Positions 1,079 to 16,953 of a stretch of 28,592 bases of DNA are shown here, in pieces (positions within the stretch are counted from its first letter, which is position 1; each line of letters starts with the position of its first letter). Location: contig JAPLNJ010001162.1 in the NCBI GenBank assembly GCA_026692885.1, forward strand, positions 1 through 28,592, read 5' to 3'. The notes below the pieces were generated by a model. It was not told where the DNA came from, searched no databases, and worked only from the letters and a program-made list of their open reading frames with translations. Origin of the DNA: Planctomycetota bacterium (lineage in GTDB: Bacteria; Planctomycetota; Planctomycetia; Pirellulales; Pirellulaceae). Both the position numbers and the translations under genes were made by a program.

Positions 1079-1095
1079 ACGCAACGCGAACGAAT

Positions 1096-1190: not shown

Positions 1191-1224
1191 CACCGCCGCA
1201 CAACACAACAACAGGAGAGACTTT

Positions 1225-3516
1225 ATGAACAAACTGATTCTTCGCACGCTGTGGACCTGTGTCACACTCGCCTCGGCTGCCGTCGGCGTTGAGGCCAACA
1301 ACGAATCGCCACTGGCGGACAAAACGCTGGTTGTGTGGGCGTCGCCCGCCAACCTCACGCAGGCGGGTGGATCGGCGCTGACCGTCAACGACACGACCGT
1401 CGACCGCTTCGACGGCGTCGTATTCGGGGAACTGGCACCGCAAGTCTGGATGCCGGGCAGCAACGGCCACAGCCACACGGAGAAGGATCAGGCCAAGTGG
1501 CCGCAGGAGACCGTAGCGGCCGACCAGTTCGTGCAGTTGGCGATTGTCTACAAGGGGTCCCAGATCACGGTCTACCGCAACGGCGAATTGTACGCCGACT
1601 ACCGCACCAACGGTGGCCCGTCGGCCTACGGCCCCAACACCGCGATCCTGTTCGGCCAGCGACACCTGCAGCAGAACGTCGCCTGCTTTTTGGGACGCAT
1701 CCGCGACGCTCGCGTGTATGCCCAGCCGCTGGACCAGGCCACCATCGCCGCGATGCAGCCGAGCAAACCGGTCGAACAAATCGAGCCTTGGGCGTGGTGG
1801 GACTTCGCCACGACCGGGATTTATGATCGGGCTGGACGGTTCAATCAAATCAAACTGTCGGGCGGCGCGAAGCTTGAAGGCGGCTGCCTGGTCCTGGGTG
1901 GGAAGCAGCCGACGATGCTCGCCATGCGGGACGGCGAGGGCTTGAACACCGCCCAGGTCCCGACCACTTGGTCGAACACGGATCCGGTCCCCGCCGCGGT
2001 CGTGCAATCGACGCGGTTGTTCCGCGAGAAGCTGCTGACCGATCCCTATCGGCCGGGTTACCATTTTTGCGTTCCGGAAGATAACGGCCGGCCCGGCGAC
2101 TCTAACGGCTGCTTCTACGCCAACGGCCGTTATCACTTGATGTACCTGTACAACCGCCACGGGGTCGGCTTCTGCTGGGGGCATATTTCCAGTCAGGATC
2201 TGGTTCACTGGCGGCATCATCCTGACGCGATCGGGCCTGGCGACGGCGACGAAGGCTGCTTCAGCGGGGGCGGCTTCGTCGACGACGATGGGACCGCTTA
2301 CCTGTCCTACTGGATGCTTTGGGGCGACAAGGGCATCGGCCTCGCCAAGAGCAGCGACCGGCACTACGACCGCTGGCAGAAATTGGCCGCCAACCCGGTC
2401 ATCAAGTCGACAGAATGGGGCCTCACGGAAACGACCGACGAAGCCGGCAACAAGCTGATCTATGGCTCGGCCGACCCGACCAACGTCTGGAAGAAGGGCG
2501 GCAAGTACTACATCCTGACCGGCAACCTGCTGGTGTTGAACAAGTATGGCCGCAAGCCGGATGCGCCTGCGGACATGAAGGGCGACCGGCTGTATCTGCT
2601 GGAATCGGACGACTTGGCCAAGTGGCGGTACCGGGGCATCTTCTACCAGCGGAATCCCGCTTGGACCGACGACAGCGAAGATAATATGTGTCCGAGCTTC
2701 CTGCCGCTGCCCGCCAGCGCCGACGGCGGCCGGCCGAGCGGCAAGCACCTGCTGCTGTTCATCAGCCACAACAAAGGCTGCCAGTACTACGTGGGTCAGT
2801 ACGATACACAGAACGACAAATTCATCCCGGAGAACCACGGCCGCATGACCTGGGTCGATAACACCTACTTCGCACCGGAAGCGTTGATCGACGGCAAGGG
2901 CCGGCAGATCATGTGGACCTGGTTGACCGACAATCCCGGCGGCGAAGAGGCCCGCGGCTGGTCGGGCGTGTATGGTCTGCCGCGTTCGCTGTGGTTGGGC
3001 GACGACGGTACGTTGCGGATGGCGCCCGTGGAGGAGCTGAAAATGCTCCGCGGCGGCGAAAAGACCTGGAGCGACATCGCACTCTCCGACGGCGTCACGA
3101 AGCCGGTGGACGGCGTGGTGGGCGATTCCTGCGAGTTGGAGCTGACGATCGATCCGGGCGCGGCCAGGCAATGCGGAGTGCAGGTGCGGACGTCGCCCGC
3201 CGGCGAGGAGTCGACGTTGCTGTACTACGACGCCGCAGCCAAGCAACTCTGTTTCGACTCGACCCACAGCGGCATCGACGGGCGGCGCACACTAGAACAA
3301 GCGCCGTTCAGCCTGCAGGACGGCGAGCGGCTGCGGCTGCGGGTGTTGATCGACAAGTCGGTGGTCGAGGTCTACGCCAACGACCGTCAGGCAATCTGCC
3401 GCCGCGTCTATCCCGGCCGGTCGGATAGCCTGGGCGTCGCTCTGTTCGCCACCGGCGGCGACGCACGAATTGCCAGCGTCAAAGCTTGGGAAATGATGCC
3501 GTCGAATCCGTATTAG
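1225..3516 (+). CDS. Exported GH32-like glycoside hydrolase with N-terminal LamG-like domain
   Basis: A 763-aa protein likely to cleave fructan or a related oligosaccharide outside the cytoplasm. The start at 1225 is supported by AGGAGA 6-7 nt upstream and an immediate signal peptide (MNKLILRTLWTCVTLASAAV); the frame stays open far upstream, but that part is repeats and relics. Residues about 30-210 resemble a laminin-G/concanavalin-like sandwich (FVQLAIVYKGSQITVYRNGE, then FLGRIRDARVY). Residues about 270-620 form the five-blade GH32-type domain: GDSNG near D292 stands for the nucleophile motif NDPNG, FSGGG follows, and SADP with D417 stands for RDP. The C-terminal part is a beta-sandwich with VVEVYAND. 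The acid/base motif EC reads MC (residue 488), with a Glu three residues earlier (E485), so it is a divergent member. Substrate unknown. The last 38 nt overlap convergent kdpC. Confidence 0.85.
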   Translation: MNKLILRTLWTCVTLASAAVGVEANNESPLADKTLVVWASPANLTQAGGSALTVNDTTVDRFDGVVFGELAPQVWMPGSNGHSHTEKDQAKWPQETVAADQFVQLAIVYKGSQITVYRNGELYADYRTNGGPSAYGPNTAILFGQRHLQQNVACFLGRIRDARVYAQPLDQATIAAMQPSKPVEQIEPWAWWDFATTGIYDRAGRFNQIKLSGGAKLEGGCLVLGGKQPTMLAMRDGEGLNTAQVPTTWSNTDPVPAAVVQSTRLFREKLLTDPYRPGYHFCVPEDNGRPGDSNGCFYANGRYHLMYLYNRHGVGFCWGHISSQDLVHWRHHPDAIGPGDGDEGCFSGGGFVDDDGTAYLSYWMLWGDKGIGLAKSSDRHYDRWQKLAANPVIKSTEWGLTETTDEAGNKLIYGSADPTNVWKKGGKYYILTGNLLVLNKYGRKPDAPADMKGDRLYLLESDDLAKWRYRGIFYQRNPAWTDDSEDNMCPSFLPLPASADGGRPSGKHLLLFISHNKGCQYYVGQYDTQNDKFIPENHGRMTWVDNTYFAPEALIDGKGRQIMWTWLTDNPGGEEARGWSGVYGLPRSLWLGDDGTLRMAPVEELKMLRGGEKTWSDIALSDGVTKPVDGVVGDSCELELTIDPGAARQCGVQVRTSPAGEESTLLYYDAAAKQLCFDSTHSGIDGRRTLEQAPFSLQDGERLRLRVLIDKSVVEVYANDRQAICRRVYPGRSDSLGVALFATGGDARIASVKAWEMMPSNPY

Positions 3517-4627
3517 GGGGGGCACGGCCGGTCGTGACGGGTTCGGGCCGGCGCGGCTCAACGCTGTTCGTGGCATGGAGTGCCTGCGCCAAACGGTCGA
3601 GCCCGTCCGACGAGGCTGCCCTCTCATAGCGATCCCGCAGAACCAAGTTGATTTCGAGCACATTGACCAACGGCACCCCGACGAGACCACCCAGGGGCGC
3701 ATGGATTCTCTCCCGCAACCATTGGTCGATCTGGCGGCGCAGTTGCTGTTCGTCGCTACCCGTCTTCTTAGCCCAGGCGGCGGCGACCCGCGGCAACTGA
3801 TACAAAGCGCTGCTCAAGGTAATGTCGGGATCAAGGCCCGAACCGGAAGCCATCACCATATCTGCAGGGACCGGCTCGAGCTCCAGATCCCCATGTTCCT
3901 GCATCCACATGTCGAAGAAGCCGGCCTGGATGTCGGTCCCCGCCGTTGCCGACTCGAGCGTCTGCTCCGTTTTCCCCTCCGACGTTGCCTGCTCGATCAG
4001 GCAGGGGAACGTGCCGGGATGCGTGTGGGAGTAGTCCGTAAAGAAGGACGTCGCCAGGTCTTCGGGTTTCGGCTCGGTTGTCCCTGGGTGGGCCTTGATC
4101 CATTCCGCGATTTCTCCCGGATGCGTCTTCCGCCATTCCGCGACATGGGCGGTGTTCCGCGGATCAGCTTTCACCCAGTTCTGAGCAACCACGGGATGCA
4201 AAGCCGCCCACTGTGCAACAATGCTCGGCTTCCCCGCAAACCGATCGTGTTGAAACCAGCTTTCGATGTCAGGACCAACCAACCGGCCTGCCTGCGGCCC
4301 GCTCCGATACTTGACCAACGGGCCGAGTTGGCGCGCCACGCGGTCGCGCAGCAGGTAATTACTGGCCGCCCAGTTCGAGGCACCAGAAGCCGTAGCGTTG
4401 TACGAGACGGCCGAAGGGCGGGGCCAGAAATACTCGTCGGCCGTGAACGGCTGAGCGATCAGACGCGATCCCCGCGGACGCCCTCCCGCATCCATCACTA
4501 GGCTGCCTTGCGATTGGTCGTGGAACACGAGTTGGCCGACGCCGAGCAGGGCCAGGGGATACAACACCGAGCAGAGCAGCACGGTCAGGACCAGCAGCCA
4601 CAAATTCGCACGCAAATGAGCCTTCAT
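3479..4627 (-). CDS. kdpC: KdpC subunit of the K+-transporting ATPase, enlarged form
   Basis: Stabilising subunit of the KdpFABC high-affinity K+ pump, one N-terminal membrane helix (residues about 8-32) with the rest outside. AGGAGT precedes the start, 10 nt after the kdpB stop. The N-terminal part (GSRLIAQPF, YFWPRPSA, YNATASGASN) and the C-terminal part (SGSGLDPDITLSSA, then GVPLVNVLEINLVL) are classical KdpC. At 382 aa it is about twice the usual ~190: roughly residues 104-253 are an insert holding four W-x3-(H/D)-P units at W140, W151, W165 and W176, and there is a Pro-rich tail after about 338. The identity is secure because both conserved halves are in frame. The gene end overlaps the convergent GH32-like gene by 38 nt. 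Confidence 0.93.
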   Translation of the reverse strand: MKAHLRANLWLLVLTVLLCSVLYPLALLGVGQLVFHDQSQGSLVMDAGGRPRGSRLIAQPFTADEYFWPRPSAVSYNATASGASNWAASNYLLRDRVARQLGPLVKYRSGPQAGRLVGPDIESWFQHDRFAGKPSIVAQWAALHPVVAQNWVKADPRNTAHVAEWRKTHPGEIAEWIKAHPGTTEPKPEDLATSFFTDYSHTHPGTFPCLIEQATSEGKTEQTLESATAGTDIQAGFFDMWMQEHGDLELEPVPADMVMASGSGLDPDITLSSALYQLPRVAAAWAKKTGSDEQQLRRQIDQWLRERIHAPLGGLVGVPLVNVLEINLVLRDRYERAASSDGLDRLAQALHATNSVEPRRPEPVTTGRAPPNTDSTASFPKL

Positions 4628-4637
4628 CGTTCGACTC

Positions 4638-6887
4638 CTAGACCAGATGTACGGCGACTAAGATCAGGTCGATCAGCTTGATGCAGACAAACGGCGCGGT
4701 CACCCCGCCCAGCCCCCAGACCAGCAGGTTGCGGCGGAGCAAGGCATCGGCGCCGACGGGCCGATACTTGACGCCCTTAAGCGCGATCGGGATCAGCAGC
4801 GGAATGATCAGCGCGTTGAAGATCACGGCCGACAGGATGGCCGAGGTGGCGGAATGCAGGTGCATGACGTCCAGCGGTTTCAGCCAGGGGAGTGTGGCCG
4901 CGAACAGGGCCGGGATGATCGCGAAATACTTGGCCAGATCGTTGGCGACCGAGAAGGTCGTCAGGGCACCACGGGTCATCAGCAGCTGCTTGCCGATCTC
5001 CACCGTTTCGATCAGTTTGGTCGGATCGCTATCCAGGTCCACCATGTTGCCGGCTTCCTTGGCGGCCTGAGTGCCCGAGTTCATGGCGATGCCCACGTCG
5101 GCTTGCGCCAACGCCGGCGCGTCGTTGGTGCCGTCGCCCATCATGGCGACGAGCTTGCCACCCGCCTGCTCCTGGCGGATGTAGGCCAGCTTGGCTTCCG
5201 GCGTCGCTTCGGCAATGAAATCGTCGACACCGGCTTGCCTGGCAATCGCGGCCGCCGTCAGGGGATTGTCGCCGGTGACCATCACCGTACGCAGTCCCAT
5301 GCGGCGCAAGCGGGCAAACCGCTCGGCGATTCCCGGTTTGAGGATATCTTCCAGGACGACCATCCCGGCGATCCGGTTACCCTCGCCGACCAACAGCGGC
5401 GTGGCGCCTTGGGAAGCGACATCCGCCACCCGCGTTTCCACGTCCTTCGGCTCCGCTCCGTCTTGCTGGCGGACGTACCGGAGGATGGCATCGGGTGCCC
5501 CTTTCCGGATCTGATGACCGCTGGCCAGGTCGATCCCACTCATCCGCGTTTGAGCCGAGAAGGCGATGAAGCGTGATCCGGCAGGAACCAGAGCGTCCCC
5601 CTTGGCGGTCCACACCTCGCGCCGGCCGCCGGACTTCCCAGTCTGGCTCAGGCGATGAAACAATTCTACGATGCTCTTGCCCTCAGGCGTCTCGTCGGCT
5701 TCGGAAGCCTGGGCGGCCAACCGCCCGACCTCGATGGCCGTATAGCCGTCAAACGGCAGGAACTGCGTCGCTCGGCGATTGCCCACGGTGATGGTCCCCG
5801 TCTTGTCGAGCAACAACGTGTCCACGTCGCCAGCCACTTCCACGGCCTTGCCGCTCTTGGCGATGATATTGGCCCGCAGCGCTCGGTCCATGCCGGCGAT
5901 ACCGATCGCGGACAGCAGCGCGCCGATGGTCGTGGGAATCAAGCACACCAGCAAGGCGATCAAAGTGGGCACGTCGGTGCCGAGGCTCAACATTCGCTGG
6001 TCCTGTCCCAGATAGTCCTGCATGTAGAGTTCCACGTGGTAGGCCATCGGCCACAGCGTCGCGGTCACCATCAGGAACATCAGCGTGAAGGCGGCCAAGA
6101 CAATCGACAGGGCGATTTCGTTGGGCGTCCGCTGCCGAATGGCCCCTTCCACCAAGGCGATCATGCGATCGAGGAACGATGTACCGGGACTGGCCGTGAT
6201 CTGAACCACGATGCGGTCGGACAGGACCCGAGTGCCGCCGGTGACGCCCGAGCGGTCGCCGCCCGCCTCGCGGATCACGGGAGCCGACTCACCGGTGATG
6301 GCCGATTCGTCGATCGAGGCCACGCCTTTGACGATCTCTCCATCGCCGGGAATCACTTCGCCGGCGACGACTTCGACGAGATCTCCGGCTCGAATGGCCG
6401 TCGAGACGGTTTGTTCGGTCGTGCCATCCGCATGCCACCGCCGAGCCGGTGTCGTCCGCCTGGTCTTGCGCAGTGCGTCGGCCTGCGCCTTGCCGCGCGC
6501 TTCGGCAATGGCCGAGGCGAAATTTGCGAACAGCAGCGTCGCCACCAGCCAGACGTCCAAGGTCAGCAGATAGCTCAGCCCCGCCGCGCTGGGGTAGCCC
6601 AAGAGCGAGGCCACCGTATAGATCACGGCTAGCGCCGTCGCGACCTCGACCACAAACATCACCGGATTCTTCCACTGAAGATCGGGACGGAACATGATCA
6701 GCGACTGCGCGAACGCGGTCTTGAGCAACTCCCGGTCGAAGAGTCCGGCCTTGCGACTGTGCCGCCGCGCCAGTTTGAGTTCTTCCCGCGGCGGCGCGGG
6801 GCCAACGCTCGGTGGTCGTTCCTGCAGCAAGGTGCCAGGCATGGTTCCTTTCCTTGTCTCGCAGTGTTGAAGCGTGCTGATGTTCAT
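4638..6887 (-). CDS. kdpB: KdpB, catalytic P-type ATPase subunit of the K+ pump
   Basis: Hydrolyses ATP to drive K+ uptake by KdpFABC in the inner membrane. Visible motifs are TGES (198-201) in the actuator domain, [11 protein letters not shown] in the membrane region, the phosphorylated aspartate in DKTGT (D361), a [13 protein letters not shown] nucleotide-binding segment and GDGTNDAPA in the hinge. The serine of TGES, the inhibitory phosphorylation site in E. coli KdpB, is kept (S201). The 749-aa reading starts 3 nt after the kdpA stop with GGAGG 7 nt upstream. A second start at 6842 (MPGTLLQ) also has a purine-rich site and would give 734 aa, nearer the family's usual ~680-700. The operon position between kdpA and kdpC is standard. 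Confidence 0.97.
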
Positions 6888-6890
6888 GGT

Positions 6891-8729
6891 CTAACCTCCG
6901 AACGGCAGGGGGCCGAAGTGCTCCGCGACCGGGCCGAGCGCCGCCACCGGCAGGAACAGCAGAGCTCCGACAAGCAGGATCGTGCCCAGCAGGACGCAAC
7001 CGAAGGTGACGGTATTGGTCCGTAGCGTCCCCACCGTGATCGGTGTGGGTTTTTTCGCCGCCAAGCTGGCCGCGACAGCCAGCGGCGCGATAATCGGCAC
7101 GAAGCGGCCGACCAGCATCACCAGGCCACACACGATGTCCCAAGGGCGGCTGTACGGGGCGGGCGCGGAGGGGTTATCCTCGGGTTTGTTGAACCCCCAA
7201 GTGTCCCCCAGGCCCTCGCAGCCAGAGCCGTTGTTGGCCGAGGCCGAACTGAACTCGTACAGGACCTGCGAGAAGCCGTGCGCCGCCGGGTTACTCTCGG
7301 CTTTGAGGCCCCAGTTCGTCGCGGCGAACAGACCGGTGGGAATCAAGACCAACAGGGGATGTACCAGCATCGCCAGCGACGCCAGCTTCATCTCGCGAGC
7401 CTCAACTTTCTTGCCCAAGTACTCGGGCGTGCGTCCCACCATCAGGCCCGCCAGGAAGACCCCGATGATCAAGTACACCAGCAAGTTGATGAGTCCGACA
7501 CCGACACCGCCCCAGATGCAGTTGAGCCACATGCCCGCCAGTGGCGCGATTCCGGCCAGCGGATTGAGGCTGTCGTGCATGGCATTGACCGACCCGTTCG
7601 AGGTGTTGGTGGTCAGGGCCGCCCAGGTCGCACCGGCGGCCGTGCCAAATCGCAGTTCCTTACCTTCCAGATTGCCCAAGGTCTGGTCGACGGGAAGGGC
7701 GGCCACGGCGGAAATCGTCACGTCGCGCTGGCCGCCAGTCGTCGTCGCAGCGGGGATGGAATAGACGCGCGCCGGATGGGCCGTCAAAGCCGCGTTGGGC
7801 TGCAACGTGTCGTAGCAGATCGCCCACGCCACGCTGGCCACAGATAGCACGAGCATCACACCGAAAATCACGGCTGCGTCCCGGTAGCGGTTCAGCATCT
7901 TGCCGAACATGACCAATGCCGCAACCGGCAAGAGAAAGAGACCGACACAGCTCAGCAGATTGCTGAACGCATTGGGATTTTCAAAAGGATGTGCGGAATT
8001 GGCGCCGAAGAACCCGCCGCCATTGGTGCCAAATTGTTTGGCTGCCACGATGGCAGCGACAGGCCCGCGGGCGATGGATTGGACCAGCGTGGCTTGACCA
8101 TCACTGCCCATCCCCATCGCACCAGGTTCAAGCGTTCTCGCCTCGGCCTGCCCCTCCAGGGTCATCGGTACGCCGCTGGCAATGAACAGTACGCCCATGG
8201 CGAGACACAACGGCACGAAGATATATGCCGTCCCACGCCAAAGATCGACGTAGAAATTACCCATGTGCGAGTCGCCCCGTAGACCGCGAATCACCGCCAG
8301 TAATGCCGCCATGCCGATCATCGGCGACAGCACCTGCTTCCAGCAAATGAAGAACAGCTGGCTGAAATACGAGAGATGGACTTCGCCCGAGTAGTGCTGT
8401 TGGTTGGTATTCGTCAAGAACGAGATGACCGTGTGAAAGATCATGGTCGGCCCAAGCATCTGCTTGCCGTCGGGATTCAGCGGCAGGTAGGGCTGCAGGG
8501 CCAACACCACGAAGCCCACCAGAAACGTCACGGCATGGAACGCCATAAAGGACAGGGCGTACTGCTTCCAGTTCTGTGGGCCGGTATCCAGGCACGCCTC
8601 GATCGACCGTAACCATTTCGGGACACCGAGTCGGGCGTCGAAGACCTTGGCCAGGGTCAACCCGAGGGGGATAGCCAGAACGAAGGCGGCACTGAACACC
8701 AGGAGCGGAAGAAGCCAAACCTGGGACAT
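6891..8729 (-). CDS. kdpA: KdpA, K+-channel-like translocating subunit
   Basis: Binds and translocates K+ in the KdpFABC complex; related to the SKT transporters, with four pore loops. Filter regions are visible as TNTNQQHYSGE, then NGGGFFGANSAHPFENPNA, then TNTSNGSVNAMHDSLNPLAG, and finally SSASANNGSGCEG. Many hydrophobic helices follow one another along the protein. I place the start at 8729 (MSQVWLLPLL) because AGAAGG lies 9 nt upstream; starts at 8738 and 8756 are in frame, but the first has no spacing from that site and the second would overlap kdpF. This gives 612 aa, a little over the usual 560-600. The stop is 3 nt before kdpB. Confidence 0.96.
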   Translation of the reverse strand: MSQVWLLPLLVFSAAFVLAIPLGLTLAKVFDARLGVPKWLRSIEACLDTGPQNWKQYALSFMAFHAVTFLVGFVVLALQPYLPLNPDGKQMLGPTMIFHTVISFLTNTNQQHYSGEVHLSYFSQLFFICWKQVLSPMIGMAALLAVIRGLRGDSHMGNFYVDLWRGTAYIFVPLCLAMGVLFIASGVPMTLEGQAEARTLEPGAMGMGSDGQATLVQSIARGPVAAIVAAKQFGTNGGGFFGANSAHPFENPNAFSNLLSCVGLFLLPVAALVMFGKMLNRYRDAAVIFGVMLVLSVASVAWAICYDTLQPNAALTAHPARVYSIPAATTTGGQRDVTISAVAALPVDQTLGNLEGKELRFGTAAGATWAALTTNTSNGSVNAMHDSLNPLAGIAPLAGMWLNCIWGGVGVGLINLLVYLIIGVFLAGLMVGRTPEYLGKKVEAREMKLASLAMLVHPLLVLIPTGLFAATNWGLKAESNPAAHGFSQVLYEFSSASANNGSGCEGLGDTWGFNKPEDNPSAPAPYSRPWDIVCGLVMLVGRFVPIIAPLAVAASLAAKKPTPITVGTLRTNTVTFGCVLLGTILLVGALLFLPVAALGPVAEHFGPLPFGG

Positions 8730-8746
8730 GGACAGCATCCTTCTGC

Positions 8747-8836
8747 TTAGAACCACTCTGGCCGCAATAAGGCGGCGGTCAGATAACCCAGCAGCAACAA
8801 CGTCGTCGCGGCGGTAAGTACCTGCAAAGCATCCAT
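8747..8836 (-). CDS. kdpF: KdpF, small membrane subunit of the K+ pump
   Basis: A 29-aa peptide: it begins MDALQVLTAATTLLLLGYL and ends LLRPEWF. One membrane helix followed by the (L/Y)xxLLRPExF ending is the KdpF signature. KdpF is a lipid-like stabiliser of the KdpFABC complex. It lies 17 nt upstream of kdpA, its standard position. Confidence 0.9.
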   Translation of the reverse strand: MDALQVLTAATTLLLLGYLTAALLRPEWF

Positions 8837-8849
8837 CAGCCAGCCCTCT

Positions 8850-8945
8850 CTAAATCTTGTCACAGGCAGCCACAAAAGCCGTTAGCAGCCCCAACGCGGC
8901 GAGGCCTAACGCGAACATCACGGGCAACCACATCAGCAGGTCCAT
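8850..8945 (-). CDS. 31-aa membrane peptide of the kdp operon
   Basis: The peptide starts MDLLMWLPVMFALGLAAL and ends in TAFVAACDKI: a single hydrophobic helix with a short charged C-terminus. It is in the operon, 5 nt after the preceding 72-aa gene and 13 nt before kdpF. Short single-helix peptides ending in a Cys-Asp/Glu-(K/R)-(L/I) motif occur upstream of kdpF in other bacteria as I recall them; the role is unknown. A ribosome site is plausible (AGGAGTGACTCGC upstream of the ATG). It could be an extra structural or regulatory peptide of the pump. Confidence 0.7.
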   Translation of the reverse strand: MDLLMWLPVMFALGLAALGLLTAFVAACDKI

Positions 8946-8950
8946 GCGAG

Positions 8951-9169
8951 TCACTCCTGCGATAGATAGTCCTGGCATCGGTCGCAGGCCCAGACGTAGA
9001 CCGCCAGAACAGCGAAGACCGCGATGGCCAAGACTGCCCTCGCGGCGAAGACCGCCAGGTCCGACCGCTGAGCGGTCAGGTGATCAAACTCGAAGGCCAC
9101 GCCGACTAATGTGCCGACAGTGGCCAACGAAAAGCAGACGACAAGAATTCTGTTCCAGACTCGCCACAT
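8951..9169 (-). CDS. 72-aa two-helix membrane protein, first gene of the kdp operon
   Basis: Hydrophobic segments at about residues 7-27 and 40-61 indicate a small inner-membrane hairpin protein; the C-terminus (YVWACDRCQDYLSQE) is hydrophilic and has two cysteines in CDRC. AGGGGG lies about 8 nt before the ATG. It is the first gene after the inferred sigma-54 promoter and only 5 nt ahead of the next small gene, so it is very probably co-transcribed with kdpFABC. I recognise no family. Its position suggests an accessory subunit or a regulator of the pump; that is inference. Confidence 0.65.
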   Translation of the reverse strand: MWRVWNRILVVCFSLATVGTLVGVAFEFDHLTAQRSDLAVFAARAVLAIAVFAVLAVYVWACDRCQDYLSQE

Positions 9170-9262
9170 CGGTTGGCCCCCTAGTCATCGCCAGCCGCAG
9201 CAAGGAGTACTCAGCGCTGACCGGCTCGTTCGTTCACGGTATCGAAACTGCACATCATCAAA

Positions 9263-9276
9263 GCAAGCGACGTGCC
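9263..9276 (-). promoter_or_regulatory. Sigma-54 (-24/-12) promoter of the kdp operon
   Basis: On the minus strand 9276 to 9263 reads GGCACG-TCGC-TTGC. The consensus is TGGCACG-N4-TTGC(A/T); here every core position except the first T matches, the next base is T, and the GG-N10-GC spacing is exact. It faces the kdp operon, with a predicted start near 9251 and a leader of about 80 nt before the first gene at 9169. The divergently encoded sigma-54 activator at 9476 makes functional use likely. Confidence 0.7.
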
Positions 9277-9299
9277 GACGCTGGCACAAAAGTCACAAG

Positions 9300-9328
9300 T
9301 GGTGAGTCTCGCAAGGGTTCAGTAGAAT
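9300..9328 (+). promoter_or_regulatory. Possible sigma-70-type promoter of the regulator operon
   Basis: TGGTGA (9300-9305), 17 nt, TAGAAT (9323-9328) on the plus strand, directed at the response regulator gene. The layout matches the one at 1162-1190. The predicted start near 9335 would put the tandem repeats at 9350-9393 in the leader. The -35 box is weak. Confidence 0.3.
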
Positions 9329-9349
9329 GGCATCACGGGGCTTGGCCCC

Positions 9350-9393
9350 TGCAAATTGCAGATTGCACGATGAGTCATGCAGGATGCACGATG
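9350..9393. promoter_or_regulatory. Candidate enhancer (UAS) cluster for the sigma-54 activator
   Basis: TGCAAATTGCA at 9350-9360 is an odd-centred palindrome. TGCACGATG occurs at 9364-9372 and again at 9385-9393, exactly 21 bp apart (two helical turns). Relative to the inferred kdp start near 9251 these lie at about -99 to -142, where NtrC-type enhancers normally sit. The function is inferred from position and periodicity only. Confidence 0.4.
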
Positions 9394-9475
9394 GACCGTG
9401 GATCGCAGTGGCTTGTCACGGCGTGAATCGACGACTTACACGGCTTCCGAATCCGTCAAGCTGGAACGGGAAAAC

Positions 9476-10810
9476 ATGAACATCCTGGTGATTGACGACG
9501 ATGCGAGACTCCGGCGCACGCTGCGCATGTCGCTGGAAGTCTTGGGACATCGGGCCGTAGAAGCTCGAGACGGTGTCCAAGCTGTCGAATTGTTGGGACG
9601 TCAGCCGTTCGAGATGGCACTGCTGGACCTGCGATTGGCGCGAGAACACGGTCTGGAACTCTTGCCGCGTTTGCTAAGTCTGGCGCCAGGCTTGTGCGTG
9701 GTGATCGTCACCGCCTATGCCACCATCGAAACGGCGGTGGAGGCCATGCGGCGTGGAGCCTTTGACTATCTGCCTAAGCCCTTCACGCCGGATCAACTGC
9801 GCGCGATTCTCGACCGGATCGCCCAACTGCGGCGGCTGGAATCCCAAGTCGCCGACTTGGAAGAACAGGTTCGCTCGAGCGTGCCTGAAGTCGACCTCCA
9901 GACAACGGAGCCGAAAATGCGTGCGGTTCTGGACATGGCATTCAAAACCGCGGCCACGGAAGCCACCATCCTGCTGCGCGGCGAAAGCGGGACGGGCAAA
10001 GGGGTCTTGGCCCGGGCGATCCATGCTCGTAGCCAGCGCGCCGGCCATCCGTTCGTCACCCTGCACTGTCCCAGCCTATCGGCCGAGTTGCTGGAAAGTG
10101 AACTCTTCGGACATGCGGAGGGCGCCTTTACCGGTGCCGTGCGTGATACCGTGGGCAAGGTAGCGGTCGCGGAAGGCGGGACCCTGTTCCTTGACGAAAT
10201 CGGGGACCTGCCCCTGGCGCTGCAGCCGAAACTTCTGCGACTTCTCCAGGAACGGTGCTATGAGCGAGTAGGCGAGACTCAGACCCGGGCGGGCAACATC
10301 CGGGTGCTGGCAGCGACCAATCGCAATCTGGAGGCCGAACTGGCTACCGGCCACTTCCGCGAAGACCTCTACTATCGACTAAACGTAATCGAAGTGACGG
10401 TGCCGCCGCTGCGCGACCGGCCGGGTGATATTCTGCCCCTGGCGGAACACCTGTTGCGGTTCTTTGCCCAGCAAAACGCCAAACCGCTTTCCGGGTTCGC
10501 CGAGCCGGTGCGCGAGGCGCTCGTCCGTTACGCTTGGCCGGGAAATATCCGCGAACTGCGCAATACGATTGAGCGGGGCGTCATTCTCGCCGCCGTCCCG
10601 ATCGTCCAATTGGCCGATCTGCCGTCGCAGGTTGGCAGCCCTAACCAGACCAGGCCCGGCGCAACGAGTGAACCGCAGACGCTCGACCAAATGGAAGCGG
10701 AAACCATCCGTCGCGTCTTGGCTTCGGCCGCGACGTTGGACGAAGCCGCGGTCAGGTTGGGCATCGATCCCAGCACCTTGTATCGGAAACGTAAGAAGTA
10801 TGGCATCTGA
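9476..10810 (+). CDS. NtrC-type sigma-54-dependent response regulator
   Basis: A 444-aa activator that should remodel sigma-54 RNA polymerase when phosphorylated. Domains: receiver (residues 1-120; acidic pocket D7-D9, phosphoacceptor D51, T79, K101 in LPKPF), AAA+ domain (about 140-375; Walker A GESGTGKG 169-176, the sigma-54 contact loop GAFTGA 216-221, Walker B near 235-240 in GGTLFLDE) and a C-terminal Fis-type helix-turn-helix (about 405-444, ending STLYRKRKKYGI). The start at 9476 (MNILVIDDD) begins exactly at the receiver; the frame is open upstream, but that is regulatory DNA. It stands where KdpE, an OmpR-type regulator, would be expected. With the kinase behind it and the sigma-54 promoter in front of kdp, it is very probably the kdp activator (inference). 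Confidence 0.93.
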   Translation: MNILVIDDDARLRRTLRMSLEVLGHRAVEARDGVQAVELLGRQPFEMALLDLRLAREHGLELLPRLLSLAPGLCVVIVTAYATIETAVEAMRRGAFDYLPKPFTPDQLRAILDRIAQLRRLESQVADLEEQVRSSVPEVDLQTTEPKMRAVLDMAFKTAATEATILLRGESGTGKGVLARAIHARSQRAGHPFVTLHCPSLSAELLESELFGHAEGAFTGAVRDTVGKVAVAEGGTLFLDEIGDLPLALQPKLLRLLQERCYERVGETQTRAGNIRVLAATNRNLEAELATGHFREDLYYRLNVIEVTVPPLRDRPGDILPLAEHLLRFFAQQNAKPLSGFAEPVREALVRYAWPGNIRELRNTIERGVILAAVPIVQLADLPSQVGSPNQTRPGATSEPQTLDQMEAETIRRVLASAATLDEAAVRLGIDPSTLYRKRKKYGI

Positions 10811-10829
10811 GTCACGGCCGAAAAATAGC

Positions 10830-10871
10830 TCCCTCGCCCCGGTACTCCGGGGAGAGGGTTGGGGTGAGGGG
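10830..10871. repeat. REP-type hairpin between regulator and kinase genes
   Basis: CTCCCTCGCCCC and GGGGTGAGGGG flank a GGTACTCCGGGGAGAGGG core, giving alternative stems. Sequences of this pattern (CCCTC...GAGGG around a CCGGGG core) are widespread intergenic repeats in high-GC bacteria. It lies in the 117-nt gap inside the regulator operon and could affect transcript stability. There is no U-tract, so it is not a typical terminator. Confidence 0.5.
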
Positions 10872-10927
10872 CAGAGCAGCAAATGCCGAAGTCATCTTTC
10901 GGCCGGTCCTAAGCGAGGAATCTGGCC

Positions 10928-12781
10928 ATGACTTTTCGTCTGCGAATCCTGGTGGCCATGCTCCCCCTGGTGGCCCTGCTGTTGACCCTGGGCGGGACGG
11001 GGACCCTGCTAATCTACCGGCTCGGCAATCGCATCGACGTGATCCTGCGCGAGAATTATGCCAGCGTGAGCTACATGCGGGACCTGAACGAGGCGTTGGA
11101 ACGCATCGATTCGTCGTTTCAGTTCGCGGTGGCCGGTCGCGATCAGGAATCCCACAAGCAGTACCAGACGAACTGGAAACTGTACGATGCGGCCCTGGCC
11201 CAGGAGCAGAGCAACATCACCGTGCCGGGAGAAGCCGAGTTGGTGGCCAGCCTGACAACGCTTAGCGGCCAGTACCGCCGCCAGGGCGAGGAGTTTTTTG
11301 ACCAGGCGGGCTCGCCCTTGAGTCGGCTGTATTTTGGCGAGCGAAACACGCCGGGACTCTACCACCGGTTCCGTGAGATCAAAGCCGTTTCAGGTGAGAT
11401 TCTGCGGATCAATCAGGACAACATGGAGGAAGCCAACCGGCAGGCACGCCGCCTGGCCCACTCCTCCCTGATTTGGTATGGCGGCGGCTTGGCGGTCGGG
11501 ATCGCCCTGGCCGCGTTTCTCGTGGCCAGCACGATTCGCACCATCCTGAACCCGATTCGTGCCGTCACCGAGTCAGTCGCCGCCATCGGAACGGGAGACC
11601 TCGATCAGCTCGTTCCGGTGACCTCGGAGGATGAACTTGGGCAGTTGGCCAGCGCGTTCAATTCCATGGCCCGCCAACTTCGGGATTATCGCCGGTCCCA
11701 CCGGGCCCAATTGACTCGTGCGCAGCAGACGAGCCAGGCCACAATCAACTCGTTCCCCGATCCGGTCTTGGTGGTCGACACCCTGCAGCACGTGGAACTG
11801 GCCAATCCCATGGCCCGCCGCCTGTTCGGCGTTCTGCCGGCCGAGGCGGAGGAAGGTACACCGCTGGTCTGGCAGCCGCCTGATCAATTGCGACAACCGC
11901 TACGGGACGTGCTGCAAGACCGCCGCGAGTACCTGCCGGAAGGCTTCGACAATGTCATCGTGCTCCCACTGGGCGAAGAGCCACGCTCGTTCCTGCCGCG
12001 AATCTTGCCCATCCACGATGCGGACGACGCTACCATCGGGGCCGCCGTGCTCTTGGAAGACGTGACTCGTTTCCGCCTGCTCGACGAGGTCAAGAGCAAT
12101 CTGGTGGCGACGGTTAGCCACGAACTAAAGACGCCTCTGACCAGCATTCGACTTGTGCTGCATCTCCTCCTGGAGGAGACCGTGGGGCCGCTGGCTCCGA
12201 AGCAACTCGAGCTACTGGTGGATGCGCGTGACAATGCGGAGCGGTTGTTGGGCATGATCAACAATCTCCTGGATCTAGCGCGACTGGAACAGGGCAGGAT
12301 TCAGCTCCAACTGCGTCCGGAGCGGCCGCTGGCTTTGTTGCAGCCGGTCGCTGACTCCTTCCGACCGCGAGCTATCGATGGGGGCCTCGAGCTGACGCTG
12401 GATGTGGCCGACGAACTGCTCCCGGTGTCCGTGGATGCCGAGCAATTCCAGCATGCCTTGCTGAATCTGTTGGACAACGCGCTAGTCCACACTCTGCCTG
12501 GCGGACGGATCACCCTGTCCGCCCGGGCGGCTGACGGTCGCGTCGTCATCTCTGTCGCGGATACAGGCTCTGGTATTCCCGCTCAGTACCTGCCCCTGGT
12601 CTTCGACAAATACTTCCGCGTGCCGGGAGACACCAGCCGAGGCGGTAGCGGCCTCGGGCTGGCGATCGTGCGAGAAGTCATCACGGCTCACGGAGGCACG
12701 GTGACGTGCGAAAGCCAGCCGGGTGTGCGGACCGTATTTCGTTTGGAACTACCCCTCGATAACGGAGGAGCGGCCGAGTAA
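10928..12781 (+). CDS. Membrane sensor histidine kinase (HAMP-PAS-HisKA-HATPase)
   Basis: 617 aa. Two membrane helices (about 4-30 and 179-205) enclose a mostly helical periplasmic region, followed by HAMP (about 203-257), a PAS domain (about 268-385, SFPDPVLVVD), the dimerisation/phosphoacceptor helix with H398 in VSHELKTPLTSIR, and the ATPase domain with N-box NLLDNALVHT, G1 DTGSGIP, F-box FDKYF and G2 GGSGLGLAI. GAGGAA precedes the start. It lies between the sigma-54 regulator and the KdpD-domain gene, so it should phosphorylate that regulator. Unlike E. coli KdpD it has no fused KdpD/Usp module; that is encoded by the next gene, 23 nt downstream. What it senses (K+, turgor or another cue) cannot be read from the sequence. 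Confidence 0.92.
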   Translation: MTFRLRILVAMLPLVALLLTLGGTGTLLIYRLGNRIDVILRENYASVSYMRDLNEALERIDSSFQFAVAGRDQESHKQYQTNWKLYDAALAQEQSNITVPGEAELVASLTTLSGQYRRQGEEFFDQAGSPLSRLYFGERNTPGLYHRFREIKAVSGEILRINQDNMEEANRQARRLAHSSLIWYGGGLAVGIALAAFLVASTIRTILNPIRAVTESVAAIGTGDLDQLVPVTSEDELGQLASAFNSMARQLRDYRRSHRAQLTRAQQTSQATINSFPDPVLVVDTLQHVELANPMARRLFGVLPAEAEEGTPLVWQPPDQLRQPLRDVLQDRREYLPEGFDNVIVLPLGEEPRSFLPRILPIHDADDATIGAAVLLEDVTRFRLLDEVKSNLVATVSHELKTPLTSIRLVLHLLLEETVGPLAPKQLELLVDARDNAERLLGMINNLLDLARLEQGRIQLQLRPERPLALLQPVADSFRPRAIDGGLELTLDVADELLPVSVDAEQFQHALLNLLDNALVHTLPGGRITLSARAADGRVVISVADTGSGIPAQYLPLVFDKYFRVPGDTSRGGSGLGLAIVREVITAHGGTVTCESQPGVRTVFRLELPLDNGGAAE

Positions 12782-12804
12782 CGCGCACGCCCCCAGGACC
12801 TGTC

Positions 12805-13986
12805 ATGGACCCAAAGATTACTCCCCGAACAACCGCGGCCGACGAAGAATCGCAGCCTAAGCCGGAGCACTTCCTGGATCTCATTCGACGCCAGCGGCGC
12901 GGCCGGTTGAAGATCTACCTGGGCTTCGCGGCCGGAGTGGGCAAGACCTACGATATGCTCCAGGAGGGCAACCGGTTACACAAACAGGGTGTGGACGTCG
13001 TGATCGGCTTCGTGGAAACGCACGGGCGCGCCGAGACGATGGCTCAAATCGGCGAAGTGGAACAGGTTCCACGTAGCCGCATTGAGTACCGTGGTATCGT
13101 CCTGGAGGAACTGGACCTGGAGGCCGTGCTGCAGCGGCGGCCGACCATTGCCCTGGTCGACGAACTGGCACACACGAATGCCCCTGGCAGCCGCAATGGC
13201 AAACGGTATCAGGACGTCGCCGAAATCCTGCGGGCCGGTATCAACGTCATCACCACGCTGAACATCCAGCATCTGGAGAGCCTGCATGACATCGTCGAAC
13301 GCGCCACGGGTGTGCGCGTCAAGGAACGGCTGCCCGACTACGTGGTCACGATGGCGGACCAGATTGTCAACGTCGACCTGTCGGCCGAGGACCTGCGGGA
13401 GAGGCTGCAGCAGGGGAAGATCTATCCGCCCGAACGCATCCAAACGGCGTTGGAGAACTTCTTTGCACCGGAAAAACTGACGCAACTTCGCGAGCTGGCG
13501 ATGGAGGAGATCGCGTTCCGGCTCGACCGGTCCCGGCGCGAAGACGAGCAGCGGGGCGGCCCGCCCGCTTCCGCCTCCGAACGCGTGATGGTCTGCCTGA
13601 GTTCGCGGAGTCCCCAGGCTTCGGCGTTACTGCGCAAAGCCTCTCGCATCGCCGACCGCTTGGGCGCTCCCTGGTATGCGGTCTACGTGCAAACGCCCCG
13701 CGAGGCACCGGAATACGTCGCTGCAGCCACGCAGCGCCAGATCGGAAACAGCCTCGATCTGGCCCGGCAGTTGGGTGGCACGTCGCTGGCCTTCAAAGGG
13801 ACCGATCTGATCACTACCATCGCGGCCTTCGTCGGCGAATACGGCATCACCCACGTCATTCTCGGCCGCACGCGGCAGCCGTGGTATCGTCGCTGGTTCG
13901 GTCGGTCCATCCTGGATCGATTGTTGCAGGCCGTTCCGGGCGTCGACGTGACCGTCGTGGACAACGGCCCGCCTCGGTCCGGCTGA
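12805..13986 (+). CDS. kdpD: Stand-alone KdpD sensor domain plus Usp domain, no kinase
   Basis: A 393-aa soluble protein equal to the N-terminal half of KdpD. Residues about 33-245 are the KdpD domain: Walker A GFAAGVGKT with K47, THGR, ALVDELAHTNAPGSR as Walker B, TTLNIQHLESLHD, and a VDLSAEDLRERL region. Residues about 255-390 are a universal-stress-protein fold (VMVCLSSRSPQASALLR, HVILGRTRQPWYRRWFG). The four membrane helices, GAF and histidine kinase of full-length KdpD (~890 aa) are absent, and the stop is followed by non-coding DNA, so this is a designed short form, not a broken gene. N-terminal-only KdpD proteins are known from cyanobacteria. It probably acts with the separate kinase upstream; KdpD Usp domains bind c-di-AMP in some Firmicutes, which may or may not apply. 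Confidence 0.93.
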   Translation: MDPKITPRTTAADEESQPKPEHFLDLIRRQRRGRLKIYLGFAAGVGKTYDMLQEGNRLHKQGVDVVIGFVETHGRAETMAQIGEVEQVPRSRIEYRGIVLEELDLEAVLQRRPTIALVDELAHTNAPGSRNGKRYQDVAEILRAGINVITTLNIQHLESLHDIVERATGVRVKERLPDYVVTMADQIVNVDLSAEDLRERLQQGKIYPPERIQTALENFFAPEKLTQLRELAMEEIAFRLDRSRREDEQRGGPPASASERVMVCLSSRSPQASALLRKASRIADRLGAPWYAVYVQTPREAPEYVAAATQRQIGNSLDLARQLGGTSLAFKGTDLITTIAAFVGEYGITHVILGRTRQPWYRRWFGRSILDRLLQAVPGVDVTVVDNGPPRSG

Positions 13987-14376
13987 AACAGGGGCCAAAG
14001 CGGTCGCATCGAGAGCACATTTCGGGCCAATTTTCTTGGCGGCCGCGACCTCGATTTGCGGGTGGCCGACGGGATGTCGGACATGGGGCGTGGGACGTGG
14101 GGACTATTCGGCTCGACTGCGGTGAGCTAGAATTCCCCACGTGCAGCCTAATTCTCCCAAACGGGGAGAAGCGGGGGAACCAACGAATCGGCTTGGGCCG
14201 ATTCCGGGGCGCAGGGCGGCTTGAGCCGCCCGGGATACTTTCAAGTCCTAGCCCGTCAGCTAACCTCGTCGGTATGGCCGGAGCGTTTTGTCCGGACCGG
14301 ATTGAAAGGGCCTGTTCGTTTCTGCACCGACGCAGTGCCTGCGATTTCTGGGATGTTGCGTCCCGTACGGTGTTCT
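13987..14376. other. 390-bp gap with several hairpins
   Basis: No gene. Three inverted repeats are visible: ACGTGGGGA (14095-14103) with TCCCCACGT (14134-14142); AATCGGC (14186-14192) with GCCGATT (14197-14203); and GGGCGGCT (14214-14221) with AGCCGCCC (14224-14231) around a 2-nt loop. None has a downstream U-tract. The CCCGTCAGCTAACCTCGTCGG segment after the last hairpin resembles repeated intergenic DNA of planctomycetes as I remember it. The gap may separate a second promoter for the permease from the sensor genes. Confidence 0.45.
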
Positions 14377-16953
14377 ATGTCCCCTTCGGATAACCCCGGC
14401 GAGGGTTCTGCGCGCAGCCGACGGCTGCGTACGTCTCAAGTGATCATCGTCAGCAGTGTGATGTTCACTTTCATTTCCTACTGGCGAACCGCCGCCATCG
14501 TGCTGTCGGACCTGGGCAGTACAGCCTATTACATCGGCGGGATTGTTGAACAGGCGATCGGTCCGGCGGCTCCCTGGTTCATCCTGGCGGTGATGGTGTT
14601 CAGCTACGCCGTACGGGCCGTGTACATCGAGAGCGTCTCGTTGTTCGTCCGGGGCGGCGTCTACCGGGTGACGCGAGAAGCCTTGGGCGGCTTCGCGGCG
14701 AAGATCTCGGTGTCGGCGCTGTTGTTCGACTACGTGCTCACGGGCCCGATCAGCAGCGTGTCGGCCGGACAATACATCATGGGCTTGCTCGCCGAACTCA
14801 GCGGTGGCCACATTCCGCCGGGAGTCCGCAACTGGGGCGCGGTGTTGATTGCCGTGGGAGTCACCGTCTACTTCTATCGGCAGAATCTGGTGGGAATTCA
14901 CGAGTCCAGCGATAAGGCCATGAAGATCATGATCGCCACGACGGTGATGGCAGTGGTGGTGCTCGGCTGGGGGGCGGCCACGTTGGTCATCGACGGTCCC
15001 CGGAATGCGGTGCCTTGGCTGCCGGATCTAACGCCGAAGATGAATTTCGCGCTGGGGCACGAAGAAAGTCCGCTGGGATTTCTTCGTGGCACGGCCTGGG
15101 GCGATAGTCTCGAGGCCCTCCACGGCAGCCAGTTCCTGAGCCTGCTGGGCGTCTTTGGCATTCTGGTGGCCTTTGGGCATTCGATTTTGGCCATGAGTGG
15201 CGAGGAGACTCTGGCCCAGGTGTACCGCGAGGTGGAGTCGCCCAAGCTCAAGAACTTCAAAAAAGCGGCCTTCATCGTTTTTCTCTACAGCTTGATCTTT
15301 ACGGCGGGTATCAGTTTCCTGGCCGTGCTGATCATCCCGGACGACGTCCGCATGTCCCATTACGCCGACAATCTGATCGGCGGGCTGGCGATGAGCTTTG
15401 TGGGACCGCACTGGGTCCGACTGATCCTCAACGCGTTCGTGGTCGTGGTCGGGTTCCTGATTCTTTCGGGAGCCGTGAACACGGCCATCATCGGTTCCAA
15501 CGGGGTGCTCAATCGTGTGGCCGAAGACGGCGTAGTGCCCGCCTGGCTGCAACGGCCTCATCCCCGGTATGGCACCACCTACCGCATCCTGGGACTGATC
15601 TTACTCCTGCAACTGGCCACGCTGCTGGTCAGCGGCGGCGACGTGCTCGTGTTGGGCGAGGCCTATGCGTTCGGGGTGGTCTGGAGCTTTGTCTTCATGA
15701 CCGCTTCCATGCTCATCCTGCGTTTCAAGAACCGCCAACCCCGCGAGTTCTCCGTCCCGCTGAACATCCGCCTCGGCCGCTGGGAACTGCCGCTCGGACT
15801 GGGGTTGGTCTTTCTGGTTCTGCTCCTGTCCGCGCTGGCGAATTTGTTGACCAAGGACACTGCGACCAAGTGGGGCGTAGGCTTTACCGCCGCATTCCTG
15901 GTCGTCTTCGCGGTTACCGAATGGATCAATCTGCGGCGTCGGCGAGGCGCGGCGCACGCGCACGTCGAACAGTTCAACCGGGAGAGTACCGCCCAGGTCT
16001 CGCTCGAAGTCCTGGGCCTAGACAAACCCTACCGCAAGCTGGTCGCGATTCGTTCCCCGCACAGCATGTACATGCTGGAAAAGGCGCTGGCCGAAACCGA
16101 TCCGCAAACGACGGAACTGGTGGTGATGACCGCCAAGTTGACGCTGGCCGACGAGACTCCCGGCCAGGATATCCCGGTGTTGAGCGACTATGAGCAGCAG
16201 CTGATGACCGCCGTGGTCCAGCGCGCGGAACTGGCGGGCAAAGAGGTCAAGCCCTTGATCGTGCCCACGAACAATCCGCTGCACGCGGTGCTGCGCACGG
16301 CCACCGACTTGGGGGCCCAGGAGGTCGTGCTGGGCGCGTCCAACAAGTTCACGGCCGAAGATCAGATCGATCAGGTGTCACTCTATTGGGTGAGCCTGCA
16401 CGGAGGCGCCCCGGCGCCGTTGACGGTCCGTATTGTCAGCCGCAACCGCGACCTCTACTTCGACCTGTCCGGTGGCAACCGCATCCCGAAGATCAGTGAG
16501 CGCCGCGCGCGCAACGTGGCAGAACTGAGGGCCGCCGGGGTCGGCGCCGATCGGGTGCTGTTCGTACACGACGGCAGCCCCGCCGGGCACGACCTGTTCC
16601 TGGCCCTGCTGACCGCCCTCGATCCGGACGTCCAGCTGACCGTGGTTCGCCACGAGGCGCCGGCCGAGGGTGTGGCACCGGAGCACGACCGCATTGCGGA
16701 GGATCACGCACGGGCTCAGCAGCTCAAGCGAGACATGGATCTGCTGACGCTGACGGGTCCCTGGGGGCCGGCCATCGTGGAAGCGGCTCGGGCCGGCAAC
16801 CACGACCTGATCGTACTACCGTTGGACCGCGAAGCATCGGCTGCGGCCGATGCGCTCCGAGAGCCCTGGGTCGAATACATTCTGAGCCATGCGGCGAGTT
16901 TCGTTCTGTTTGCGGTGGCCCCGTCAATTCCCGCCTTGACGGAGGACCAGTGA
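14377..16953 (+). CDS. APC-superfamily permease with C-terminal Usp-like domains
   Basis: An 858-aa membrane protein. About twelve helices span residues 20-510, with typical APC sequences (VLSDLGSTAYYIGGI, GGVYRVTREALGG, LLFDYVLTGPISS and GSNGVLNRVAEDGVVPAWLQ). The soluble C-terminus (about 545-858) contains two Usp-like folds: one around KLVAIRSPHSMYMLEKALAE, one around RVLFVHDGSPAGHDLFLALL. I choose ATG 14377 (MSPSDNP); the frame is open to a TTG at 14221, but that part overlaps a repeat hairpin. Substrate unknown. The neighbourhood of the kdp regulators and the APC fold of the K+ importer KimA make K+ a reasonable guess; an amino acid is the conventional alternative. A Usp domain also occurs in the KdpD-like protein just upstream. 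Confidence 0.85.
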   Translation: MSPSDNPGEGSARSRRLRTSQVIIVSSVMFTFISYWRTAAIVLSDLGSTAYYIGGIVEQAIGPAAPWFILAVMVFSYAVRAVYIESVSLFVRGGVYRVTREALGGFAAKISVSALLFDYVLTGPISSVSAGQYIMGLLAELSGGHIPPGVRNWGAVLIAVGVTVYFYRQNLVGIHESSDKAMKIMIATTVMAVVVLGWGAATLVIDGPRNAVPWLPDLTPKMNFALGHEESPLGFLRGTAWGDSLEALHGSQFLSLLGVFGILVAFGHSILAMSGEETLAQVYREVESPKLKNFKKAAFIVFLYSLIFTAGISFLAVLIIPDDVRMSHYADNLIGGLAMSFVGPHWVRLILNAFVVVVGFLILSGAVNTAIIGSNGVLNRVAEDGVVPAWLQRPHPRYGTTYRILGLILLLQLATLLVSGGDVLVLGEAYAFGVVWSFVFMTASMLILRFKNRQPREFSVPLNIRLGRWELPLGLGLVFLVLLLSALANLLTKDTATKWGVGFTAAFLVVFAVTEWINLRRRRGAAHAHVEQFNRESTAQVSLEVLGLDKPYRKLVAIRSPHSMYMLEKALAETDPQTTELVVMTAKLTLADETPGQDIPVLSDYEQQLMTAVVQRAELAGKEVKPLIVPTNNPLHAVLRTATDLGAQEVVLGASNKFTAEDQIDQVSLYWVSLHGGAPAPLTVRIVSRNRDLYFDLSGGNRIPKISERRARNVAELRAAGVGADRVLFVHDGSPAGHDLFLALLTALDPDVQLTVVRHEAPAEGVAPEHDRIAEDHARAQQLKRDMDLLTLTGPWGPAIVEAARAGNHDLIVLPLDREASAAADALREPWVEYILSHAASFVLFAVAPSIPALTEDQ

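Follow-up and report, generated by a model that had tools for sequence, protein, structure and literature searches.

The Kdp potassium pump is a standard model for how bacteria regulate ion pumps, and its regulation has mostly been described through KdpD and KdpE. In Escherichia coli, control of kdp is of the sigma-70 type. Here we describe a kdp locus of a Planctomycetota bacterium (family Pirellulaceae), contained in a stretch of 28,592 nt (GenBank assembly GCA_026692885.1, contig JAPLNJ010001162.1, positions 1 to 28,592 of the forward strand), which we call the window. No OmpR-type KdpE is present at the locus, whose regulator is instead NtrC-type, and we consider it likely that K+ homeostasis is controlled here in two separate layers, one transcriptional and one post-translational.

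Among the described systems, that of Desulfovibrio vulgaris Hildenborough is close to this arrangement. Its kdp operon is a target of the sigma-54-dependent regulator DVU3334, and a KdpD-domain/UspA protein and a separate kinase are encoded alongside (PMC3333781, PMC4641369). Like the window, the region DVU3334-3339 has an NtrC-type regulator with a GAFTGA motif next to kdp, and the KdpD-domain/UspA protein and the histidine kinase are encoded by separate genes. The D. vulgaris regulator is described as lying inside the kdp operon, whereas that of the window is divergent with an intergenic enhancer. The authors regarded the kinase as split into two open reading frames (ORFs), and two further regulators also target that operon. 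Because of this precedent, neither sigma-54 control of kdp nor a KdpD in separate parts is new as such. An earlier note on this DNA, made from the sequence alone, had contrasted the locus with E. coli KdpD/KdpE; this contrast misses the D. vulgaris precedent.

A second line of work concerns the post-translational role of KdpD. E. coli KdpD has in its N-terminal domain an atypical serine kinase, which phosphorylates KdpB at Ser162 and thereby inhibits it, and a short KdpD/Usp protein of Deinococcus geothermalis phosphorylates KdpB when given cyclic di-AMP (c-di-AMP) (PMC11018627). In some species the serine kinase and the histidine kinase are separate chains, and in species without KdpE most KdpD versions are without the histidine kinase part (Silberberg et al., 2024, PMC11018627). 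The window shares with E. coli KdpFABC/KdpD the pump itself, the serine-kinase residues of the KdpD N-terminus with the exception of W39, and the serine in the TGES motif of KdpB. Unlike in E. coli, there is no KdpE or full-length KdpD at the locus, sigma-54 control is predicted, and KdpC is enlarged. With the stand-alone D. geothermalis protein it shares domain order and catalytic residues; unlike there, KdpD/Usp of the window is linked with a kinase/regulator pair and a putative sigma-54 promoter. Control of kdp without KdpDE, and a c-di-AMP riboswitch in a K+ locus, are also known for kdpFABC of Bacillus thuringiensis (PMC6488665), but there the riboswitch precedes kdp and in the window it precedes a permease.

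The gene inventory of the earlier note was borne out by Pfam: kdpFABC, two extra small membrane ORFs and, divergently, a regulator, a kinase, KdpD/Usp and an APC-Usp permease. On the minus strand the order is 72-aa ORF, 31-aa ORF, kdpF, kdpA, kdpB, kdpC, and on the plus strand NtrC-type regulator, histidine kinase, KdpD/Usp and then the AA_permease_2 + Usp permease. The search of planctomycete genomes for this order, which the note had proposed as a check, was carried out with the KdpD/Usp protein on one genome per species (84,980 species), a scan that reaches close relatives only. It returned 12 loci, all under planctomycete names bar one labelled only 'Bacterium'. In 6 of the 12 contigs the complete order is seen, with kdpC-B-A divergent from regulator, kinase and KdpD/Usp; in three it is cut off by the contig end. 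The regulator match is missing in L005, and in L010 kdpB-kdpC-KdpD/Usp are all on the same strand. Chance is excluded as an explanation for the recurrence of the gene order. In L004 (5723-9918) regulator, kinase, KdpD/Usp, enhancer and a kdpC remnant are present and kdpA/kdpB are absent; the same genome has an ordinary kdpA at another site.

Further kdp loci were collected by KdpA searches. These gave matches in 61 of 392 genomes of the Limnoglobus phylum sample at E ≤ 0.001, many of them weak and partial, and in 47/102, 68/396 and 37/170 genomes of the orders around three relatives at E ≤ 1e-40. The stretches compared were 37 of the phylum sample plus 60 picked from the order searches; these are not a random sample of kdp loci, because selection favoured KdpA matches scoring like that of the window. 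A locus was called window-type if its KdpA is at least 55% identical to that of the window. Counts for upstream regions refer to 45 window-type and 56 other kdp loci, with rows of less than 250 bp upstream sequence left out. Among the 56 others, with KdpA unlike that of the window, 29 have KdpD-KdpE signals and 13 have KdpD minus its kinase end. The divergent regulator is found within the stretch in 30 of the 45 window-type loci.

The features predicted to act in transcriptional control are:

9262..9277, minus strand (kdp direction): candidate sigma-54 -24/-12 element CGGCACG-TCGC-TTGCT, matching 11/12 consensus positions
9357..9388, minus strand: tandem enhancer-like palindromes TGCATCCTGCA and TGCAATCTGCA, TGCA-N3-TGCA twice, 21 bp apart
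9476..10810, plus strand (ORF open from 9377): NtrC-type enhancer-binding response regulator (PF00072, PF00158, PF25601, PF02954)
10928..12781, plus strand: membrane histidine kinase with HAMP, PAS, HisKA and HATPase domains (Pfam)

The -24/-12 element was scored against the 12-position consensus. The site at 9277-9262 is the sole one on either strand of the window to score at least 11, and the chance of an 11/12 score in the 306-bp intergenic region was 0.0028 in a first-order Markov simulation. The first 12 loci and the window together make up 433 kb of both-strand sequence, in which 11/12 sites occur only three times, each upstream of kdp. The tandem TGCA-N3-TGCA element, first recognised by reading nine intergenic regions, lies 111 bp upstream of the -24 element in the window. 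A -24/-12 score of at least 10/12 was found in 29/45 window-type and 5/56 other upstream regions (5 and 3, respectively, on the opposite strand). The tandem element reached at least 13/16 in 26 of the 31 loci classed with a divergent regulator (30 of these are window-type), in 1/30 KdpD-KdpE loci and in 0/13 truncated-KdpD loci; 2-5% of Markov shuffles reached this score. A composite score of at least 22 for the enhancer and -24/-12 pair was seen in 7/8 discovery loci, 26/37 further window-type loci and 0/56 others, compared with 3/45 window-type and 1/56 other loci on the reverse strand and 0/4040 shuffles. The distance from enhancer to -24 is 110-112 bp in 29 of the 33 composite loci. Fisher's test for the composite, window-type against other loci, gives 1e-14, a value that overstates independence because the loci are related; the 105-116 bp limit of the composite was set after the distances in all loci were known and is not a clean test. 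When the scan was widened to 60-200 bp (thresholds 13 and 10), 20 of 27 kdp-upstream pairs lay at 110-112 bp. The same scan found 10 more pairs elsewhere in the loci, three of which belong to window-type kdp loci and lie at a greater distance upstream (L092, L093, L095); those of L086 and L090 are near kdp genes and without explanation. The predicted promoter and enhancer together are laid out as one would expect at a target of a sigma-54 enhancer-binding protein.

Second composites precede a Band 7 gene in L095 (3681-3805 and 4534-5331), and in L093 (2015-2143) one lies upstream of a weak peptidase-like match, two P-II-like proteins (one below the family cut-off) and a CNNM protein. In 20 genomes the tandem pattern (at most one mismatch) occurs at 10 places, 5 of them upstream of kdpA. 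The remaining five have no -24/-12 match of at least 8/12 at 100-120 bp on either strand, and a wider regulon of the regulator was therefore rejected. As a reversed control pattern gave 6 places, the tandem pattern alone is not specific genome-wide.

The regulator consists of a receiver (Response_reg), an AAA+ domain (Sigma54_activat) in which GAFTGA is intact, as had been noted before, and a Fis-type helix-turn-helix (HTH_8). Its closest PDB match is the NtrC-family 4l4u. The most likely start is the ATG at 9476 (ORF residue 34), since the matches of most relatives begin at residues 27-34. The phospho-acceptor Asp, the Walker Lys and the GAFTGA Thr are kept in 29/29 sequences, and the predicted DNA-binding end, LGIDPSTLYRKRK with close variants, is conserved, which fits the conserved site. 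The kinase has two transmembrane segments with a loop of about 150 aa between them, and its SHELKTPL motif is found in 25/26 relatives. The earlier note had proposed that kdp is driven by sigma-54 through the adjacent regulator and had named a KdpE elsewhere that controls kdp as a finding that would speak against this. A KdpE-like protein (E ≤ 1e-40 to E. coli KdpE) was found in at least 2 of 20 related genomes that have the module or most of it; in the larger genomes 148 candidates were scored. One of these genomes, G003, has an ordinary-score KdpA elsewhere and, of the module, only regulator genes; another, G511, is considered below. rpoN is present in 8/8 genomes tested. Sigma-54 control is supported by these two counts and by the conserved -24/-12 element with its tandem enhancer at a near-fixed distance.

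The features of the predicted second layer follow on the plus strand:

12805..13986, plus strand: stand-alone KdpD/Usp protein, predicted atypical serine kinase for KdpB (PF02702 + PF00582)
14135..14290, plus strand: c-di-AMP riboswitch aptamer RF00379 (56.9 bits, gathering 38, E 6.6e-11)
14377..16953, plus strand (ORF from 14221): APC-fold permease with C-terminal Usp-like domains (AA_permease_2 + Usp, Pfam)

KdpD/Usp consists of PF02702 and PF00582 only, without the transmembrane/GAF and histidine kinase parts, and matches NF038185 ('KdpD-like non-kinase potassium sensor') with 365 bits, under the cut-off of 550. The residues of the serine kinase are kept: G30, G36, K37 and T38 (Walker A GX5GKT), D109 and E110 (Walker B) and the adenine-contact R190 are found in all 34 KdpD/Usp proteins at least 49% identical to that of the window, which is itself counted. 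The TGES of KdpB is kept in 40/41 sequences (the window and relatives at least 66% identical). In a FastTree phylogeny of 81 sequences (midpoint rooted, with the Deinococcus radiodurans and Picosynechococcus proteins as stand-alone references), the window protein clusters with the two references (0.997), as does every one of the 33 short proteins from the fetched loci. Outside this clade lie E. coli KdpD and the 29 full-length and 15 truncated KdpDs. The tree does not bear out the earlier idea of a KdpD split into separate proteins, and splitting in place was rejected on this basis. Given the stand-alone clade and the kept kinase residues, KdpD/Usp is better read as an independent pump brake than as a sensor fragment. 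It probably switches the pump off and is predicted to do so via the KdpB serine. The motif for c-di-AMP in the KdpD Usp domain, (A/G/C)XSXSX2N...(Y/F), has been described for Firmicutes (PMC8214093). Of its five contact positions three are mostly kept (S244 in 33/34, S246 in 26/34 and Y271 in 32/34 proteins) and two are absent. A diadenylate cyclase domain is present in 20/20 genomes. Separately, a KdpD that has the serine kinase domain and whose match to the C-terminal half of E. coli KdpD ends before the histidine kinase occurs in L013, L016, L018, L101-L106, L109 and L110; these are otherwise ordinary kdp loci, and some of the contigs end nearby.

The riboswitch, which the earlier note does not mention, lies directly 5′ of the permease. 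The permease start is most likely the ATG at 14377, since the TTG at 14221 is within the riboswitch. Its fold is most like that of the K+ importer KimA, and it is possibly a KimA-like K+ importer. The kimA gene of B. subtilis, like the window permease, carries a c-di-AMP riboswitch. The two proteins may also be alike in transmembrane fold and putative K+-site residues. They differ at the C-terminus, which is Usp-like in the window and PPAT-like in KimA, a K+/H+ symporter that c-di-AMP inhibits in B. subtilis (PMC6994465, PMC10284832). PDB searches with the permease gave no sequence match to KimA. Alternatively, this would be an ordinary amino-acid permease and a mere neighbour, a reading that we rate only slightly below even. 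No APC permease match was found in the 12 KdpD/Usp contigs, and membership of the permease in the conserved module was rejected, as orthologues (E ≤ 1e-30) occur in 5/20 genomes and none beside kdp in the fetched loci. c-di-AMP riboswitches are present in 8/20 planctomycete genomes. At 4 of 5 riboswitch loci without a permease (L134, L138, L139, L141; L138 just under the cut-off) a Band 7/SPFH (flotillin-like) gene follows (Pfam).

The pump genes and small membrane ORFs are arranged as follows:

3479..4627, minus strand: kdpC, enlarged (PF02669 in two stretches)
4638..6887, minus strand: kdpB, P-type ATPase (Pfam), with the TGES serine equivalent to E. coli KdpB S162
6891..8756, minus strand: kdpA (PF03814, 646 bits), start probably ATG 8729
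8747..8836, minus strand: kdpF, 29 aa (translation)
8850..8945, minus strand: 31-aa small membrane ORF with C-terminus ACDKI, upstream of kdpF (translation)
8951..9169, minus strand: 72-aa small membrane ORF (translation)

KdpC contains an insert of about 148 residues (105-251), with the PDB KdpC alignment covering 5-104 and 252-331; the insert has a high-confidence structure model. The enlargement is also seen in 30/36 window-type loci and is typical of the window-type clade. In a comparison of the whole enlarged protein with known folds, the insert not being searched separately, only KdpC itself stood out. A KdpF-like C-terminal pattern, designed for the window type, was found in 39/46 window-type and 1/56 other loci, and the C-terminal pattern of the ACDKI ORF in 36/46 and 9/56. 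The 72-aa ORF has no obvious counterpart among the ORFs listed for other loci. Around the locus, a gene for a GH32 glycosidase with a LamG-like domain (529-3516, plus strand) is convergent with kdpC and overlaps it by 38 bp, a partial ISAzo13-type transposase gene lies downstream of the permease (17446-18216, minus strand), and the region 21178-27806 has GHL15-like, SDR, pectate-lyase-like and Gfo/Idh/MocA genes with no visible K+ link.

Read from these sequence features, the first layer would begin with the HAMP-PAS kinase, which may respond to a cue, extracytoplasmic or in the membrane, that signals limited K+ or turgor, and would phosphorylate the NtrC-type regulator. The regulator would then bind the two palindromes about 110 bp upstream and activate sigma-54 RNA polymerase at the -24/-12 element before the small ORFs and kdpFABC. 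It may also control itself, since the palindromes lie about 90-120 bp before its own gene. In the second layer, high K+ would lead to production of c-di-AMP, which would probably stimulate KdpD/Usp; KdpD/Usp would phosphorylate the TGES serine of KdpB and so stop the pump. c-di-AMP would also act on the riboswitch of the adjacent putative KimA-like permease.

Several observations weigh against this two-layer reading. The composite is below threshold in 11 of the 37 non-discovery window-type loci. Some of these cases are scan misses: in L076 (=L112) the pair is present at 112 bp, beyond the stretch scanned, and in L085 the palindrome spacing is 23 bp. L080, L052 and L089 seem to be without the composite, and in L062 and L008 the tandem element is present and the -24/-12 match is weak. 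L080 combines a window-type pump with KdpD-KdpE directly upstream, so that absence of the composite is as predicted by a switch of regulator. The window-type loci L055, L057, L059 and L093 have no regulator within the fetched stretch. G511 has two window-type KdpA loci and a KdpE-like gene, located on a different contig beside a KdpD-type DUF4118 frame. In KdpD/Usp the position of E. coli W39 is Y, F, C or T (it is Y also in the D. radiodurans and cyanobacterial proteins), and the c-di-AMP contact positions A242 and N249 are kept in 0/34.

KdpD/Usp might instead have a dual role, as KdpB serine kinase and as a c-di-AMP-dependent brake on the kinase/regulator pair. Full-length E. coli KdpD acts both ways, and the KdpD/Usp gene is linked with the kinase gene; L010, where KdpD/Usp stands in a kdp locus without a visible kinase, argues the other way, and we regard the dual role as possible but doubtful. 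The earlier note had favoured a different function, as one half of a two-part K+ sensor made up of the kinase and the soluble KdpD domain; KdpD/Usp would then gate kinase activity towards the regulator. The two genes are adjacent and in the same order in many relatives, the 'split kinase' of D. vulgaris likewise has a KdpD-domain/UspA protein beside a separate kinase and sigma-54-controlled kdp, and in Staphylococcus aureus binding of c-di-AMP to the KdpD Usp domain lowers kdp expression. This sensor is nevertheless unlikely: KdpD/Usp belongs to the stand-alone clade with the Deinococcus and cyanobacterial proteins, away from the fetched full-length and truncated KdpDs; all tested serine-kinase residues bar W39 are kept; in L010 its gene follows kdpB-kdpC immediately and the contig, a short one, shows no kinase; and most KdpDs of KdpE-less species are without the histidine kinase part (PMC11018627). 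That the palindromes bind another factor, the -24/-12 match is incidental and kdp is transcribed from a sigma-70-type promoter is very improbable, even though just 9/45 window-type regions reach 11/12 and 10 pairs occur elsewhere in the loci, because two separately scored elements hold 110-112 bp across loci with KdpA 56-72% identical to that of the window and the pair is missing from the 56 other kdp loci.

A joint reading of the two layers and the pump can be put forward tentatively. In a broad group of planctomycetes, Kdp would be under a dedicated sigma-54 module whose tandem enhancer keeps a near-fixed distance of 110 bp from the promoter, and would be checked by a c-di-AMP circuit, in which a free KdpD/Usp silences KdpB and, in the host of the window, a riboswitch acts on a second, KimA-like importer. 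The module would be coupled to the KdpC enlargement specific to this lineage, and the kinase could be informed of pump occupancy or K+ by the additional folded domain, for which an outward orientation is predicted.

No description of the planctomycete module was found in a search, with subscription papers largely outside its scope, for literature on kdp with sigma-54, RpoN or enhancer-binding protein or on planctomycetes with KdpD, and a full-text literature search found no paper joining 'c-di-AMP riboswitch' and 'planctomycet'. As far as seen, what is new is that the module occurs in several groups of planctomycetes, that its tandem enhancer keeps a near-fixed distance, that it is linked to the putative stand-alone serine kinase and that KdpC is enlarged.

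K+ uptake appears to be wired unlike that of textbook E. coli, because a predicted sigma-54 promoter with a double enhancer is combined with a KdpD-like protein that looks like a separate serine kinase. Several planctomycete groups would share this second wiring of kdp, whose promoter-enhancer architecture is defined sharply enough to be tested directly, and the transcriptional and post-translational jobs of KdpD would come apart. KdpD/Usp, the riboswitch and the permease form a candidate set of c-di-AMP targets in a phylum in which c-di-AMP seems to have been little studied.

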